Shown one piece after another: positions 18,144 through 26,000 of a DNA stretch of 64,000 nucleotides (within the stretch, counting starts at the first letter, position 1; the number at the start of each line of letters is the position of its first letter). The notes under the pieces are model-generated. The model saw nothing but the letters and a program-made list of their open reading frames with translations. It was not told the DNA's origin and did not search any database. Origin of the DNA: a bacterium (lineage in GTDB: Bacteria; Myxococcota; UBA727; JAUIJE01); assembly GCA_030431455.1 (NCBI GenBank), contig JAUIJE010000001.1, forward strand, positions 558,001 to 622,000, in the 5' to 3' direction. The translations under genes and the position numbers were made by a program.

Positions 18144-19274
18144 TCAGAGCCCCACGAGGTCGGGCAACAGGGCATAGAGGGCGTCGAGATCCGCCACCGC
18201 CCGGGCCCGCCGGGCCACCACCGCGCGGGGCAGATCCGCGGGCAACGAGCGCTCCAGATCCGCGGCGATGGCCGCGTCCGCGCGGTGGGCGGCGGCGCGG
18301 GCGTTGACCGCTTGCACCACCTTGTCCGCCACCGGCGCGTCGAGCCCCGCGCCCTGCAGGCGCTCGGCCAGGCCCTCGGTGGGCACGTCCGGGGCCGGGG
18401 TGTGGCGGTTGAGCACGAGGCCGCGCACGGTGAGGCCGCGCTCGTGGAGCATGTCGTGAAACAGGCGGGCCTCGCGGGCCGGGCCCTGGACCGGGGCGGT
18501 GATGATCAAAAACCCGGTGGAGTCCGAGGCCAGCAACGACTGCAGCCCCCGGGTACGGGCCGAAATCGGCGCGTACATCTCGCGGAAGGTGGCCAAGAAC
18601 GCGCCCATGTCGTCGAGAAACTCGGTGCCGGTGAACTTCGCGAACGCCGCGTACACCGCGCCTTTGGCCCCGTCCAAGAAGCGCAGACCGAGCCGGCGGG
18701 CGGCCTTCTCGTCCGACCGCGCGAACATCTTGACCGCGTCGCTCTCGAGCATGGTGAGGATGCGTTCGGGCGCGTCGAGGAAATCAAGAGCATTGGCGGT
18801 GGGGGGCGTGTCCAAGACCACGAGGTCGTAGTCGCGCTCGTGGGTGAGGGTGTAGAGGGCCTCGCAGGCGATGAACTCTTGGGCCCCGGGCAGGTCACGG
18901 GACAGCACCCGGTACAGGCGGTTGTCGAGCACGGTGGCGGCGTGGGCCTTGGTGGGGGCGGCCCGGCGCACGAAGTCGTCCCAGGCAAAGGTGAGGTCGA
19001 GCATCATCGCGCACAGCGCCCCCTGGGGCGGCACCCCGAAGGGGGCGAGCCGGGCGCCGGGGATGGGCTGGGGGGCATGGGAGAGCGCGTCGAGGCCCAG
19101 GGAATTGGCCAAGCGTTTGGCGGGGTCGATGGTGATGACGAGGGTCTTCTTGCCGATGAGCGTGCCGTATAATGCCAATGCAGCCGCGGTGGTGGTCTTG
19201 CCCACCCCGCCGCTGCCCACGCACACGATCACGCGCTTGTCCTCGACCAGTTCGCGGATCTGTTGGGCGCTCAT
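18144..19274 (-). CDS. ArsA/Get3-family ATPase, variant P-loop
   Basis: 376 aa. ATG 19274 overlaps the stop of the upstream ArsA-like gene (ATGA). The deviant Walker A reads GSGGVGKTT (residues 20-28): the signature lysine of the usual GKGGVGKT is serine, while the second Lys (26) is kept. Switch regions are recognisable (VITIDPAKRLANSLG, YDLVVLDTPPTANALDFL). Bacterial ArsA-like pairs without pump genes, such as the mycobacterial Rv3679/Rv3680 complex, are known. No arsenite metalloregion or arsB is seen here, so arsenic resistance is unlikely. It probably works as a heterodimer with its neighbour. Confidence 0.88.
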   Translation of the reverse strand: MSAQQIRELVEDKRVIVCVGSGGVGKTTTAAALALYGTLIGKKTLVITIDPAKRLANSLGLDALSHAPQPIPGARLAPFGVPPQGALCAMMLDLTFAWDDFVRRAAPTKAHAATVLDNRLYRVLSRDLPGAQEFIACEALYTLTHERDYDLVVLDTPPTANALDFLDAPERILTMLESDAVKMFARSDEKAARRLGLRFLDGAKGAVYAAFAKFTGTEFLDDMGAFLATFREMYAPISARTRGLQSLLASDSTGFLIITAPVQGPAREARLFHDMLHERGLTVRGLVLNRHTPAPDVPTEGLAERLQGAGLDAPVADKVVQAVNARAAAHRADAAIAADLERSLPADLPRAVVARRARAVADLDALYALLPDLVGL

Positions 19275-20206
19275 GAGGTGGCCCCGAGGCCCAGGTGCTG
19301 CTGCACGATGTGGATCGCGTCGAGGCCGAAGGGGGCGACGTCGATGCGGGGGATGGTGAGGCGGGGGCACCCGGTGTGCCGGGCGTCGAGGCGCGCGTAT
19401 TGCTCGGCCTCGTCGGCCTCGCGTTGTTTGCGCTCGCAGGCGATGTCGAGGGCCCGGGCCACGATGGGGTCAGACTCGTCGGTGTCCAGGGCCCCCCCGG
19501 GCACATCCGCGAACAGCGGGGGGGTGAGTTGGTTGACAATGACATTGCCAAGCGGGGCCACGTGCTCGGTCTTGGCCCGTCGGAGCAGGTCGAGGGCTTC
19601 GTTGGTGGGCATCTCCTCGGGGAGGCTCACGACGTGGAGCCGGGTCACCGCGGGGTCGAGCAGGGTCTTTTGCATCTCCGCGGTCTTGTCCGCGAGGGGG
19701 CCGTGGCCGCGGCTGAGGTCGTGCACCACCCGGGCGGTGGACATCAGCGACAGGCCGTGGCCGGTGGACGGCGCGTCGACGACGATGCGGTCCCACGCGG
19801 GGCTGCCGTCGTCGTTGGTCTCGATGGTGTGGTACCACACCTTGCCCAGCATGTTGAGCTCCTGGAGCGCGGGCAGAAAGCGCAGGAAGCTCTTGGTCAC
19901 GCGGTTGTCGAACACCGCGCGCACGACGGTGTCGAACTTCAGCACCATGCGCGCGTACTCCATCAGCGCTTCGCGGGGGGTGATGTTCACCGCGTACAGG
20001 CCGGGGCGCGCGGCCTGCACCGTCGGGCCGGGGGGCTCGATGCCGAGCAACGCGCCGTGGGTGTCGGGGGTGTTGATCTGGCAGAGCAAGGTCTTGTGGC
20101 CGGCCCGGGCGAAGGCGTCGGCCAGCGCGCACGCGACCACGCTCTTGCCCACGCCGCCCTTGCCGCTGACCACGTGGAGCTTCTGCTCAAACATCGCGAG
20201 GGTCAT
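19271..20206 (-). CDS. ArsA/Get3-family ATPase, canonical P-loop
   Basis: 311 aa. Deviant Walker A with the signature lysine intact: VSGKGGVGKSVV (G15-K16-G17-G18-V19-G20-K21). Switch-type motifs (CQINTPDTHGALLG, RIVVDAPSTGHGLSLM) and an adenine-loop-like NVIVNQLTPP are visible. It is paired with the following gene by a 4-bp overlap and overlaps the 3' end of the upstream hydrolase gene by 20 bp if ATG 20206 is used; ATG 20194 is the alternative. Together the two genes resemble the A1 and A2 halves of ArsA split into separate chains. Substrate and partner are unknown. Confidence 0.88.
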   Translation of the reverse strand: MTLAMFEQKLHVVSGKGGVGKSVVACALADAFARAGHKTLLCQINTPDTHGALLGIEPPGPTVQAARPGLYAVNITPREALMEYARMVLKFDTVVRAVFDNRVTKSFLRFLPALQELNMLGKVWYHTIETNDDGSPAWDRIVVDAPSTGHGLSLMSTARVVHDLSRGHGPLADKTAEMQKTLLDPAVTRLHVVSLPEEMPTNEALDLLRRAKTEHVAPLGNVIVNQLTPPLFADVPGGALDTDESDPIVARALDIACERKQREADEAEQYARLDARHTGCPRLTIPRIDVAPFGLDAIHIVQQHLGLGATS

Positions 20207-21496: not shown

Positions 21497-22183
21497 TCAA
21501 TCGTCGCTGGCCGCACCGTTTTCGAGGCGCTTGATGCGGGCATCGAGCTCCTCGACCCGGGACAACAACCGATCAAAATCGGGCCGGGCGTGGCTGAGGT
21601 GGGTCATGCGGCCGAGGGCGTCCTTGACCCCCTCGTCGATGGTGCGCTGCATGTTCTCGAAGGCCTCGGTGGTCGACTGCACAAACGCGCGCACCGGCCC
21701 GTCGGTCTTCTCTTTGTCCGCGGCCCGGTCGCCGGCTTTGGCTTGCTCGCCCTCGCCGCCGCTCGAGGCCGGGGGGGCGGAGGCCTCACCGGGCGCACCC
21801 GGCTCACCGTCTTTGCGGTTGAGCAACCCGTCGACCCGGCGCTCGACGTCGTCGCGGATGTTCTTCGCGGGGTCGGCGAAGTGCTTTTGGTAAAAATCGC
21901 CGAGCGCGTCGTTGCTGCTCTGGATGATGCCGCGCAGCAGCTTGAGCGGCATGCGCGAAACCTTCTTTTCTTCCTCGACGATGATCTGCGCCAACGTGAC
22001 CGCGGAGAGGTCTTCCTTGGTCTTGTTGTCGACGACCCGGACCTCTTCGCCGTCCTTGATCATCTGGCTGATCTCGTCGAGCGTGACGTAGCAGCTGCGC
22101 TCGGTGTCATAGAGCTTGCGGTTGGCGTACCGCTTGATGATCTTGACTGGGACGCCCTCGGTGCTGGCGCTGTCCTCGCTCAT
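21497..22183 (-). CDS. phaR: Polyhydroxyalkanoate synthesis regulator PhaR
   Basis: 228 aa. The N-terminal DNA-binding module (VKIIKRYANRKLYDTE, YVTLDEISQMIKDGEEV, residues about 12-47) is the hallmark of PhaR/PhbR. The accumulation-regulator motif follows (TLAQIIVEEEKK, then LLRGIIQSSNDALGDFYQKH). A Gly/Glu/Ala-rich linker (about 127-162) leads to a phasin-like helical tail and coiled coil (FDRLLSRVEELDARIKRLE). PhaR represses phasin and granule genes and releases DNA when granules bind it. The extended tail suggests a fused granule-binding part. A candidate promoter lies at 22224-22253. Confidence 0.92.
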   Translation of the reverse strand: MSEDSASTEGVPVKIIKRYANRKLYDTERSCYVTLDEISQMIKDGEEVRVVDNKTKEDLSAVTLAQIIVEEEKKVSRMPLKLLRGIIQSSNDALGDFYQKHFADPAKNIRDDVERRVDGLLNRKDGEPGAPGEASAPPASSGGEGEQAKAGDRAADKEKTDGPVRAFVQSTTEAFENMQRTIDEGVKDALGRMTHLSHARPDFDRLLSRVEELDARIKRLENGAASDD

Positions 22184-22379: not shown

Positions 22380-24098
22380 ATGATCATCCAATGCGATGAT
22401 TGCAGCACACGCTTCAACGTGCCCGACGACAAGGTGGGCACGACGGGCACGAAGGTCCGCTGCTCGAAATGTGGCGCGGTGTTTTTTGCGTACGGCCGTG
22501 CGGGCATGATCACGGCGATGTCGAGCAAGACCCGGCTCGGGCCCGGCGAGGTCGAGGCCGCGCTGCTCGCCGCGATGTCCGGAAGCCAACCGGTGGCGCG
22601 GGTCAAGACCCAGACGCTGGGCACGCTGAGCGCGCCCCCGGGCGTGGCCCCGGTGGGCAAACCCCGCACGAGCCCGTTCGCCAAGATTCCGGGGCCCGGG
22701 GCGGCCCCCGACGCCCCGCACGACCCGTTCGCGGGGGCGGTGGCGCCGACCACGCCGCCCTTTGCCCAGCCCGGGCCGCCGGGCTTGTCGGGCCCGGTGC
22801 CGCCGGCGCCGGTCGACCCCTTTCGGCCGCCGTCCGCGCCCCAGCCGATGTTGGGCATGCCCAGCGAGGAGGCCGCCCCCAGCTTTGAGCAGCCCCCGAC
22901 GTCGACGAGCAACGACGTGCACACGGACCCGTTTCAGGGCACGCCGACGGTGAAGGCCGATCCATTCCAGAGCACGCCGACGGTGAAGGCCGACCCCTTC
23001 GCGGCCACCCCCGGCGGATTTGGTGCGTCGTCCGACGAGGACCCGTTCGGCGGGGGCGCGCGCTTTGGCAGCGACGACGGCGATCCCTTCGGGGGCGGGG
23101 CGGACCCGTTCGGCGGGGCCCCGGATCCGTTCGCGGCGGCTTCGTCCTCACCGTCCGGTCCCGTCGACGATCCGTTCGCGGCATTGGCGGCCGAGGCCGC
23201 CGGCGGGGGCGGGGCGCCCGATCCCTTCGCGGGAGACGCGGGACCGCCGCCGCCCCCCGCCACCGATCCCTTCGCCCCCGGCGGCGATGACGGGATCGAC
23301 CCGTTCGCGCCGGGGCAGAGCGACCCCTTCGAGATGCCGAAATCGCCCGCGACCCCGTCCGACGCGCACCCCACCGGCGGCCTGGCCGGCCCGCCGGTGG
23401 GTCCCCTCGACGAGCTCCCCGAGGGCGACGAGGGCGCGTTTGGCGCGCCCCATTCGGAGCTGGCCCCGGCGACGATGATCCACACGCTGCCGCAGGAGTT
23501 CGACACGTCCATCCCCGACACCGGCGCGCACCACACCGCGCCCCCGGTGACCGAGCCACCGCCGCCGAGCGCGCTGTCGCGGTGGCTGCTGCCCCTGGGG
23601 CCGGTGCTGAGCGGGGCGGTGCAAGTGGTGCTGTTCGCGGGGTTTGTGGTGGTGGCGGTGAGCTTGGCCCGGGGCGGCGATCCTGTGGCCCTGCTCGACG
23701 GTGACCTGGAGCGCGCGTTCGTGGCGTCGGGCGCAGCCGAAACCCAAGGCACATTGGCGGCCATGGACATCGAGGTGCGGCGCCGGCCGACCAAAGCGGT
23801 GCCCGGGCTGGTGGTGGTCACCGGCCGGATCGAAAACCGTGGAGAGCAGCCGGTGCCGGCGCCGCCGGTCGAGGTCGCCATCGGGGAGACGGTGGCGCCG
23901 GCCGCGGTGGGGGTGGACATGGACCCCTTTGAGGTGGACGGGGCGGGCTCGTTTGAGGATCTGCGGGCCCTGTTGGCGCGCCCTGGGTCCAGTCGCATTG
24001 CGCCGGGGGAGAGCGCGGCGTTCGTGGCCTTCGTCGACGGGGTGAAGGACGGCCAGCGGGCGGAGCTGCGGCTCGGCGATCAGGCCGCGCCCCCATGA
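22380..24098 (+). CDS. MJ0042 zinc-ribbon membrane protein with DPF motif repeats
   Basis: 572 aa. The N-terminus is an MJ0042-type zinc ribbon (CDDCSTRFNVPDDKV, then VRCSKCGAVF; Cys 5, 8, 28 and 31). A long disordered Pro/Gly/Asp/Ala-rich region (about residues 100-320) carries fourteen Asp-Pro-Phe motifs, two inside an exact 11-residue repeat (TPTVKADPFQS). A transmembrane helix (about 412-433) precedes a C-terminal domain like DUF3426, with a further DPF in MDPFEVDG. The architecture recalls zinc-ribbon motility or polarity proteins of myxobacteria, but no GYF or TonB domain was seen. The stop overlaps the next start by 4 bp. Confidence 0.85.
   Translation: MIIQCDDCSTRFNVPDDKVGTTGTKVRCSKCGAVFFAYGRAGMITAMSSKTRLGPGEVEAALLAAMSGSQPVARVKTQTLGTLSAPPGVAPVGKPRTSPFAKIPGPGAAPDAPHDPFAGAVAPTTPPFAQPGPPGLSGPVPPAPVDPFRPPSAPQPMLGMPSEEAAPSFEQPPTSTSNDVHTDPFQGTPTVKADPFQSTPTVKADPFAATPGGFGASSDEDPFGGGARFGSDDGDPFGGGADPFGGAPDPFAAASSSPSGPVDDPFAALAAEAAGGGGAPDPFAGDAGPPPPPATDPFAPGGDDGIDPFAPGQSDPFEMPKSPATPSDAHPTGGLAGPPVGPLDELPEGDEGAFGAPHSELAPATMIHTLPQEFDTSIPDTGAHHTAPPVTEPPPPSALSRWLLPLGPVLSGAVQVVLFAGFVVVAVSLARGGDPVALLDGDLERAFVASGAAETQGTLAAMDIEVRRRPTKAVPGLVVVTGRIENRGEQPVPAPPVEVAIGETVAPAAVGVDMDPFEVDGAGSFEDLRALLARPGSSRIAPGESAAFVAFVDGVKDGQRAELRLGDQAAPP
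22939..23004 (+). repeat. 33-bp tandem repeat in the DPF region
   Basis: A block beginning GCACGCCGACGGTGAAGGCC occurs at 22939 and again at 22972 with a 33-bp period, encoding TPTVKADPF twice. The third base of some codons has drifted (GATCCATTC versus GACCCCTTC). Confidence 0.8.
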
Positions 24099-24853
24099 CC
24101 GGCCTGTTCGCGCTGCCGGCTCCCTTCGCGGTAATCGAGCTGGCCAAACGACTCCGGGCGCTGGACAGCTTGGACCACCGCCGGCGGGCGATGATGCGGG
24201 TGGTGGGCGAGGCCCCGGCGCTGCCCATGGTGCGGCTCCTGGGCTGTGCCCAGCGCGAGGCGGCGATGGGGTCGGCCCACGGGCGGCTGGTGTTTGACGT
24301 GTTCGGCAGTGTGCTCGCCGAGAACATGATCGATGCTGACACATTGGAGACCTGGGCCGAGGCCGCGGAGGAGATCGCCGAGGTCGCGGTGGCCCTGTTG
24401 CTCCGCGGGGAAGGGCCGGTCGACGAGGCCGATGACAAAGAAGCCCCCCGCGGCAGCCTCGCCGCGGAGGGCGAGACCTTGGGCCGGCGGAAGTCCCTGG
24501 CCCGCACCGCCCATGGCGACACCTTGGAAAAGCTGCTCATCGACCCGCACCCCGACGTGGTCCGCGAACTGATGAGCAACCCCCGCCTGGTCGAGGGCCA
24601 GGCGGTGCGATTGGCCGCGCGCACCAAGGCCCCCAGCGCGGTGCTCGAGGTGTTGGGCCAGAGCAAGTTCATGAAGTCGCCCCGGGTGCGGCTCGGGCTT
24701 GCCACAAATCCCCGCTGCCCCCCGCCGCTCGCCTGCCGCGTGCTCCCGTCGCTCAAGCGCCACGACCTCGTCGACATCGCCCACGACAAGCGTCTGCACC
24801 CCAGCGTCCGCCAAAGCGCCCGCGTGCTGCTCGACGGCAAACCCCCGCGCTGA
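24095..24853 (+). CDS. Hypothetical helical-repeat protein
   Basis: 252 aa. The ATG overlaps the stop of the zinc-ribbon/DPF gene (ATGA), so the two are translationally coupled and probably function together. No signal peptide or membrane helix. The C-terminal half (about residues 135-250) has HEAT/variant-leucine-rich-like helical repeats with the phrase LLIDPHPDVVRELMSNPRL. It then repeats in looser form (APSAVLEVLGQSKFMKSPRV, RHDLVDIAHDKRLHPSVRQS). Such repeats normally mediate protein binding. The family was not identified. Confidence 0.75.
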   Translation: MTGLFALPAPFAVIELAKRLRALDSLDHRRRAMMRVVGEAPALPMVRLLGCAQREAAMGSAHGRLVFDVFGSVLAENMIDADTLETWAEAAEEIAEVAVALLLRGEGPVDEADDKEAPRGSLAAEGETLGRRKSLARTAHGDTLEKLLIDPHPDVVRELMSNPRLVEGQAVRLAARTKAPSAVLEVLGQSKFMKSPRVRLGLATNPRCPPPLACRVLPSLKRHDLVDIAHDKRLHPSVRQSARVLLDGKPPR

Positions 24854-24891: not shown

Positions 24892-25854
24892 CTAGAACAG
24901 CAGCCCGAACCGAATCGTGCCCTGGGCCATGACCGGCGACCGGTCGAGGCTCCCCGACGAGAGCTGGAGCAGGCGGTCGGGGAAGATGTTGAGGTCGAGC
25001 CCGGCGCCGATCTGAACGATCGCGACCTGGACCCGCACCCCGGCGCTGACCCGGTCGTACCGGTTGAGGGCCACGCAGTTGAGCACGTCGGAGGTGCAGG
25101 CCTCTTGCGAGGGGGCGACAACCTGGGCCATGGCCACGGGCTGGAACGTGAACGTGTTGCCCACGTCGGAGGTGTTGGTGGGGTCGGCGTCGACCAGGCG
25201 GGTGCGGGCGTCGATGAAGATGCTCTCGTAGGCGAAGAAGGGCACGACCTCGAAGTCGCCAAAAATCGCAAACCCTTTGGACACGGCGCCGCCGACGGTG
25301 GCGGTGGTCAGGTCGAGGTCGTCGGAGCCCACCAGGCGGGTGATGCCCGCATCGAGGGCGATGTCCGGCAGCCACAGGATGCCTTCGTTGAGGGCCACCT
25401 TGCCTTTGGCCGAGATCGCCACGAGGCCAGACTCAAGAATCCACATCGCGCCCATCTCGACCTCGGAGGTCAAGGGCACCGGGAGCACAAAGCCCTTGCG
25501 CCCCCGCACCGCCAACGTCTCCATCGTCGGGACCACCGGCGGCTGGTTGTCGAGTCCAGTGCCTTTGCGCCCGCGGTCCCACTGCTCTTCCCAAAAAGAA
25601 ATCACGTGCAGCGACGTGTCGATGGCGAAGTCGAAGCCGGCTTGGCCGGTGGTCTCGGCGGGGTTGATGTGCGTCGGCGTCATCACGAAGCCGAGCTCGG
25701 TGGTGAGATCGCGGAACGCGACGTTGTCGGGTTGGCCGCCGGGGTCGGTGAGCCCGAGCAGGTGGATGTCGTTGGGGGCCGCCCACGCCGGCGCGGTCGC
25801 CAGCCACGCCAGACACGCCAAACCCGAGGCCATCGCTTGTGTGCGCACCGTCAT
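24892..25854 (-). CDS. Hypothetical outer-membrane-type protein
   Basis: 320 aa. ATG 25854 begins a signal peptide (cleavage near ATAPAWA-AP, residue about 26); upstream in-frame codons are low-complexity. The mature part is rich in alternating beta strands (FDFAIDTSLHVISFW, TTATVGGAVSKGFAIFGDFE, VSAGVRVQVAIVQIGAGLDL) and ends FGLLF, with a C-terminal Phe typical of outer-membrane beta barrels. Two Cys (in EACTSDVLNC) may form a loop disulfide. No family name is justified. It diverges from the dcw operon, so the 395-bp gap upstream holds its promoter as well. Confidence 0.75.
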   Translation of the reverse strand: MTVRTQAMASGLACLAWLATAPAWAAPNDIHLLGLTDPGGQPDNVAFRDLTTELGFVMTPTHINPAETTGQAGFDFAIDTSLHVISFWEEQWDRGRKGTGLDNQPPVVPTMETLAVRGRKGFVLPVPLTSEVEMGAMWILESGLVAISAKGKVALNEGILWLPDIALDAGITRLVGSDDLDLTTATVGGAVSKGFAIFGDFEVVPFFAYESIFIDARTRLVDADPTNTSDVGNTFTFQPVAMAQVVAPSQEACTSDVLNCVALNRYDRVSAGVRVQVAIVQIGAGLDLNIFPDRLLQLSSGSLDRSPVMAQGTIRFGLLF

Positions 25855-25956
25855 TGGCGGCGAGATTACGCAACAACCGGGGCCGGCGTCCATTCTGTGA
25901 CGGCGGGTCCGGGCGGGGGGGGCGGCGGCGGGGCCACGGGTGTCCTGGCCCGGCGC

Positions 25957-26000
25957 CCGCCGGTTGCCGCCCACGATCCACCACGATCCACAACCGGCGG
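25957..26000. repeat. Nested repeat: 10-bp inverted repeat enclosing a 10-bp direct duplication
   Basis: Perfect inverted repeat CCGCCGGTTG (25957-25966) / CAACCGGCGG (25991-26000). The 24-bp interior holds CCACGATCCA twice in tandem (25971-25980, 25981-25990). It has no U-tract, so it does not look like an intrinsic terminator. It lies between the divergent 24892-25854 gene and the dcw promoter. Confidence 0.8.

Follow-up and report, generated by a model that had tools for sequence, protein, structure and literature searches.

Multivalent scaffolds built on short linear motifs are well worked out in eukaryotes, and few have been defined in bacteria. The locus described here raises the question of whether a bacterial membrane protein may work in this way. 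In a window of 64,000 nucleotides (the whole stretch of DNA analysed, from contig JAUIJE010000001.1 of a 7.7-Mb genome of the phylum Myxococcota), one gene encodes a zinc-ribbon membrane protein with fifteen Asp-Pro-Phe (DPF) tripeptides. Are these tripeptides a by-product of composition, generic aromatic stickers, or docking sites, and if they are docking sites, what reads them? We favour, at a probability of roughly 0.6, the reading that the protein is an inner-membrane multivalent short-linear-motif scaffold with a putative reader, and we refer to it below as the scaffold. Such a scaffold would be a first lead on what the zinc-ribbon/DUF3426 membrane proteins do.

Domain Organization of the Scaffold

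The scaffold is a member of the MJ0042/Zn_ribbon_4 zinc-ribbon proteins: it has two CxxC pairs, and both profiles score above their cut-offs (Pfam Zn_ribbon_4, PF13717, on residues 1-36, E 1.5e-14, 54.1 bits against a cut-off of 30.3; NCBIfam MJ0042_CXXC, TIGR02098, E 5.9e-13, 48.3 bits against 20.9). The ribbon is followed by a Pro/Ala/Gly-rich linker of about 370 residues, a single transmembrane helix, and a C-terminal domain (Table 1). A Pfam search of the scaffold at E up to 1 returned zinc-ribbon families only, and the window protein itself has no match to the DUF3426 profile (PF11906); this profile matches 14 of 23 scanned sequences of the scaffold family (E up to 0.1, best E 5.1e-7). 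Judged by sequence, the scaffold is built like known zinc-ribbon/DUF3426 proteins, with the C-terminal domain assigned by orthology. From the predicted topology, we infer that the zinc ribbon and linker are cytoplasmic and that the C-terminal domain is periplasmic.

The DPF tripeptides lie at residues 115, 146, 183, 194, 205, 221, 235, 242, 249, 264, 281, 296, 307, 315, and 515. A preliminary description of this DNA had reported fourteen of them between an MJ0042 zinc ribbon and the helix and one C-terminal of the helix, and both our recount and the Pfam/NCBIfam profiles agree. The single post-helix DPF occurs in the window protein alone among 58 orthologue rows and is probably unrelated to the linker array.

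Table 1. Features of the scaffold locus (window coordinates)
Feature	Position	Strand	Remarks
Divergent neighbour, PHB_acc_N domain	21497..22183	-	PF07879, E 5.4e-28
Scaffold gene (zinc ribbon, DPF linker, single TM helix, DUF3426-like domain)	22380..24098	+	572 aa
MJ0042-type zinc ribbon, residues 1-36	22380..22487	+	CDDC...CSKC; PF13717, TIGR02098
Disordered linker stretch with 14 DPF, predicted cytosolic	22722..23330	+	Motif conserved in orthologues
Codon starts of the 14 linker DPF	22722, 22815, 22926, 22959, 22992, 23040, 23082, 23103, 23124, 23169, 23220, 23265, 23298, 23322	+	
Short tandem repeat, 2.3 copies of 33 bp	22926..23000	+	Spans three DPF; Tandem Repeats Finder
Single transmembrane helix, residues ~409-427	23604..23660	+	Hydropathy maximum 2.48
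C-terminal domain, predicted periplasmic, DUF3426-like by orthology	23682..24095	+	PF11906 matches in orthologues
Fifteenth DPF, within the predicted periplasmic domain	23922..23930	+	Not conserved
ATGA start/stop overlap of scaffold and coupled genes	24095..24098	+	4 bp
Coupled gene, LRV/HEAT-like helical-repeat protein	24095..24853	+	252 aa; conserved across the phylum

Composition and DNA Repeats

One explanation of the array is that a linker rich in Asp, Pro, and Phe has grown by DNA repeats and carries DPF with no motif function. The scaffold gene does contain a 33-bp tandem repeat, and repeat expansions are seen in the linkers of some relatives (L084, L110, and L063). However, this repeat is the single array that Tandem Repeats Finder detects in the gene, 12 of the 15 DPF lie outside any detected array, and the motifs are written with varied codons (seven different 9-mers). 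DNA repeats account for little of the array, and repeat expansion was rejected as its source, given one small tandem array alone. Across 20,000 shuffles of residues 39-402, DPF turned up 0.33 times on average and never more than 4 times, against 14 in the real sequence. We also searched the 7.7-Mb genome for close pairs of DPF codons (GAYCCNTTY-N{3,33}-GAYCCNTTY), with the reversed pattern as a control: the pattern has 14 matches, seven of them in the scaffold gene, five in one other gene, and two elsewhere, and the reversed pattern has none.

Conservation of the Motif across the Myxococcota

Orthologues were collected by using the neighbouring gene, 24095-24853 (hereafter, the coupled gene), as the anchor, chosen for its good conservation. 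Among 81 loci examined, 58, from 12 families of the phylum, have a zinc-ribbon/transmembrane gene upstream of the coupled gene. Two loci (L098 and L099) were left out because they have no coupled-gene match, and 19 because no upstream zinc-ribbon reading frame was found (L064, L070, L078, L080, L081, L087, L088, L094, L095, L096, L097, L100, L101, L120, L122, L123, L126, L127, and L128). Several of these 19 lie at the end of a contig, L100 and L101 hold a paralogue, and L070 was missed, its frames being joined; L081 and L126 hold a truncated scaffold gene with five and two [DN]PF, respectively. Two further loci were removed by hand: L069, an unrelated protein, and L086, a broken frame with six DPF in another frame. 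One start among the 58 pairs (L137) is misassigned, and an alignment that combined rows of the scaffold with rows of its partner was excluded for misalignment. Among named relatives that have the coupled gene, the nearest five are Myxococcales/Deltaproteobacteria assembled from metagenomes.

DPF is present in the linker of 52 of the 58 orthologues, with at least three copies in 29. The 58 linkers hold 248 DPF in total, compared with a shuffled mean of 11.4 and a maximum of 21 in 300 shuffles; this 21.9-fold enrichment is the highest among the common tripeptides tested, and DPF is the top-scoring tripeptide in seven of the 12 families. In 15 alignable pairs, 124 of 132 DPF residues are identical (94%), as against 3104 of 5527 other linker residues (56%) and 1174 of 1654 Asp, Pro, and Phe letters outside DPF (71%); these pairs were hand-chosen as alignable, the alignment somewhat favours matching DPF triads, and neither shuffles nor pairwise alignments fully remove shared ancestry. 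As a control, we took 15 further zinc-ribbon proteins from these genomes, of MKF/MRF/VKF type and in many cases truncated at a locus edge: 13 have no DPF and two have one. Composition was rejected by shuffles in the window protein, across the orthologues, and per family, and we consider it extremely improbable as the explanation of a motif that 52 of 58 orthologues keep.

By contrast with the motif itself, the copy number shows no conservation: orthologues have anywhere from 0 to 16, and the positions drift too. High valency is evidently not universal in these sequences, with six of the 58 lacking DPF and many having one, and many of the single-DPF orthologues retain it in canonical form, DPFARFG or DPFAAFG for example. 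On the proposal in the preliminary description that DPF makes a multivalent linear-motif hub, sequence comparison is supportive: relatives do not merely keep the bulk composition while losing DPF. The number of copies, which was to be checked in them, varies widely. Taken together, the comparisons indicate that DPF is retained as a motif under selection, with changing number and position.

The motif extends beyond the triad. In the orthologue linkers, Ala is enriched 3.5-fold at +1 after the Phe; Leu, Ile, and Phe are enriched 3.7-, 8.3-, and 3.8-fold at +3; and the hydrophobic +3 residue is followed by Asp (3.2-fold) or Gly (2.1-fold). The form DPF[AGS]x[LIMFV] is found 114 times against 0.7 expected, in 40 of the 58 orthologues, and FDF[AGS]x[LIMFV] 34 times against 0.12 expected, in nine. 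In the window protein, just one of the 14 linker DPF fits the extended form. Three of the six DPF-less linkers have one DLFGxΦ look-alike and three have none. In one branch (L108, L118, L119, L121, L142, L143, and L146), DPF is mostly swapped for repeated FDF[SA]x[LI], as if the recognition motif had shifted there. The linker at L063, from a close relative (G003), carries a tandem, SPF-containing, Pro-rich repeat in place of DPF, a case of repeat expansion.

These flanking preferences bear on a second explanation, in which the linker would be a Phe-based sticker-and-spacer chain: DPF would be a generic aromatic sticker that promotes condensation or self-association, possibly with the zinc ribbon taking part, and would need no dedicated reader. 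The close spacing of DPF in a Pro/Gly/Ala-rich linker, the freely varying copy number, and the variants in the orthologue linkers (FDF, DLF, SPF, and NPF) would all suit a sticker. On the other hand, Asp and Pro are kept together with Phe, the hydrophobic enrichment at +3 fits a binding pocket better, and F[AGS]x-hydrophobic without Asp at -2, a class that includes the FDF form, occurs near chance (65 against 50 expected). We regard the sticker explanation as improbable.

The Coupled Helical-Repeat Gene and Its Neighbourhood

The scaffold gene and the coupled gene are separated by at most 100 bp in 57 of the 58 loci, the exception being L076 with 133 bp, and the 4-bp overlap seen in the window recurs identically in 18 of the 58 pairs. 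From gene order, the linkage of the two is operon-like. The coupled gene was matched in 47 of 58 relatives. A profile built from 33 rows finds matches in 166 of 174 genomes of the phylum at E 1e-15, the weaker ones (around E 1e-20) being a paralogue. That paralogue, which shares the repeat domain, occurs in most genomes of the phylum and is nearly universal. The window genome itself has paralogues of the coupled repeat protein at L105:6422-7870, which is the near-universal LRV paralogue, and at L106:4995-7031.

The AlphaFold model of the coupled protein is an all-helical repeat (mean pLDDT 93.4), and its repeats are conserved and rich in Arg/Lys/Asn-Pro. The next gene had been described earlier as a helical-repeat protein overlapping the scaffold gene by 4 bp; the model bears out the first point and the coordinates the second. 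No family can be named from structure comparisons by VIA-align, in which the helical-repeat hits reach Z 7.0 at most, too low for that purpose. Foldseek found nothing matching the model at E 0.001 or better, PDB sequences searched by profile yielded no match, and the coupled protein has none in the plasmid collection. LRV proteins share short repeats with the coupled protein, but the LRV profile (PF01816) is sub-threshold at 19.4 bits against a cut-off of 21.6 and matches just four of 33 orthologues, and the likeness to 1lrv (Z 6.2, rmsd 4.7, 112 aligned) is low enough that it can reflect a common helical-repeat arrangement.

Several features of the surroundings should also be mentioned. By a motif scan, 49 of the 57 other loci also have the PHB_acc_N gene next to the scaffold gene. 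Two ArsA-type ATPases (18144-20206 in the window), and a convergent secreted or outer-membrane-like gene with no Pfam match (24892-25974), lie near the pair in several relatives as well. At L070:1621-5484 (G052:C254), the scaffold and the coupled protein are read in one 1288-codon frame with an A run near the junction, probably an assembly indel and not a biological fusion. A VIA search with the L070 model was uninformative about the periplasmic domain.

Other DPF-Bearing Membrane Proteins

The sole other DPF-dense gene of this genome is L102:9265-12363 (G000:C1:151264-154362). Its product combines a zinc ribbon and TPR repeats with a transmembrane helix and a linker in which 11 DPF and several NPF occur; it may also hold a GYF-like stretch, by our own reading, which is absent from the Pfam hits listed. 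Relatives of this type with DPF/NPF occur in G003, G008, G032 (truncated), and G052 (loci L183, L184, L189, and L191). In genomes of family f13, membrane proteins at L185, L186, and L187 (G023, G042, and G055) have a DPF-rich Pro linker, with NPF also in L187; they share a C-terminal domain, and their architecture is unrelated to that of the zinc-ribbon scaffold. A protein that we take to be FHA-like (L193:2902-3543, G020:C18) begins with two DPF; some 5.5 kb away is an orthologue of the coupled gene that has no adjoining scaffold gene.

Because several membrane and regulatory proteins share DPF, a common reader fits better than a private one. A wider reading can be drawn from this: a phylum-wide grammar of D-P-F-[AGS]-x-Φ arrays (with FDF, NPF, and DLF variants) on the predicted cytosolic arms of several membrane proteins, among them the scaffold and the zinc-ribbon/TPR protein, served by a dedicated putative reader, in which the avidity logic of endocytic adaptors would have been reinvented independently in bacteria. 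Taken as a whole, this wider reading is tentative, and we would not expect it to hold in full.

What Might Read DPF?

The preliminary description had named the coupled protein as a possible reader. In the form considered here, a groove of the LRV/HEAT-like repeat would bind DPF peptides, and several copies would be recruited to the membrane. The operon-like linkage, the conserved repeats, and the confident helical-repeat model described above count in its favour, and in G086, G026, and G027 both the coupled gene and DPF are absent. The natural losses, however, mostly run the other way:

(i) G076, a closed genome in one contig (99% complete), has a scaffold with 12 DPF and the PHB_acc_N neighbour but no coupled gene, the search for it giving a partial match to the distant paralogue alone (E 4.1e-21); (ii) G045, G053, G083, and G034 have one DPF each and no coupled gene; (iii) G002 has kept the coupled gene and lost the scaffold; and (iv) at L063, L072, L077, and L089, the coupled protein keeps its conserved core beside a DPF-less scaffold.

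The run-on frame at L070 also allowed an AlphaFold test in cis, read as the mean pLDDT per block: the linker blocks stay at 36-53 up to the transmembrane helix, every motif is left disordered, and no docking is seen, which is a weak negative. On the natural losses and this cis test, the coupled protein was rejected as an obligatory reader, and with DPF arrays in other membrane proteins as well, the proposal made for it is not supported. The reader is not, or not only, the coupled helical-repeat protein, and it is more likely that this protein is a partner, translated together with the scaffold, that acts at another site of the complex. Since the near-universal paralogue shares its repeat domain, it could stand in as reader and maintain selection on the motif in genomes without the coupled gene, so that a version of the idea stays alive; as a whole, we judge the idea unlikely.

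A Probable Multi-Point Docking Scaffold at the Inner Membrane

Because DPF is kept in relatives across the phylum, the protein is probably a multi-point docking scaffold. In the model that we prefer, a cytosolic arm with 14 DPF would be anchored at the inner membrane by one transmembrane helix, and each DPF would be a weak, interchangeable docking site. The full docking form would be D-P-F-[A/G/S]-x-[L/I/F]-[D/G], perhaps a helix-capping turn that shows the Phe and the hydrophobic residue at +3 on the same side. Acting together through avidity, the many weak sites would bring one or more cytosolic partners to the membrane. The motif can be read across the phylum together with natural controls, namely motif loss, partner loss, and motif replacement, so that a search for the partner and mutagenesis of the motif could be designed straight away.

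Comparison with Known Systems

The nearest known relatives in architecture are the zinc-ribbon (MJ0042/Zn_ribbon_4) and DUF3426 inner-membrane proteins, with which the scaffold shares the order of ribbon, linker, one transmembrane helix, and DUF3426-type domain. It differs from them in that its linker carries an array of DPF that appears to be selected, and in that the window copy falls below DUF3426 detection. Within the limited collection of literature searched, we found no function for DUF3426 and no paper that deals with this scaffold or with DPF as a motif in bacteria.

Within the Myxococcota, the comparison is with GltJ, a zinc-ribbon membrane protein of adventurous gliding in Myxococcus. 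The scaffold resembles it in the N-terminal MJ0042 zinc ribbon, and the model NF033761 aligns to residues 3-36; unlike GltJ, the scaffold has a whole-protein score of 30.4 against the equivalog cut-off of 450, with the zinc ribbon alone aligned, has no Pfam GYF_2 match, and has a DUF3426-type C-terminal domain by orthology.

The other comparison is with Eps15, a protein of eukaryotic clathrin-mediated endocytosis. According to one account (PMC4731787), the C-terminal region of Eps15 is disordered and contains fifteen DPF, several of which bind at once. The scaffold likewise has a dense DPF array in a disordered region, with 14 in the linker, a likeness and not a sign of descent. Unlike Eps15, it is bacterial, has no EH domain and no homology to Eps15 in Pfam at E up to 1, and is not known to have an AP-2 appendage or mu-homology domain as partner; its orthologues prefer a small residue at +1 and a hydrophobic one at +3. 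The parallel with eukaryotic DPF-appendage systems drawn in the preliminary description therefore holds as an analogy and fails as a relationship: between the scaffold and Eps15 with its appendage partners, there would be convergence at most.
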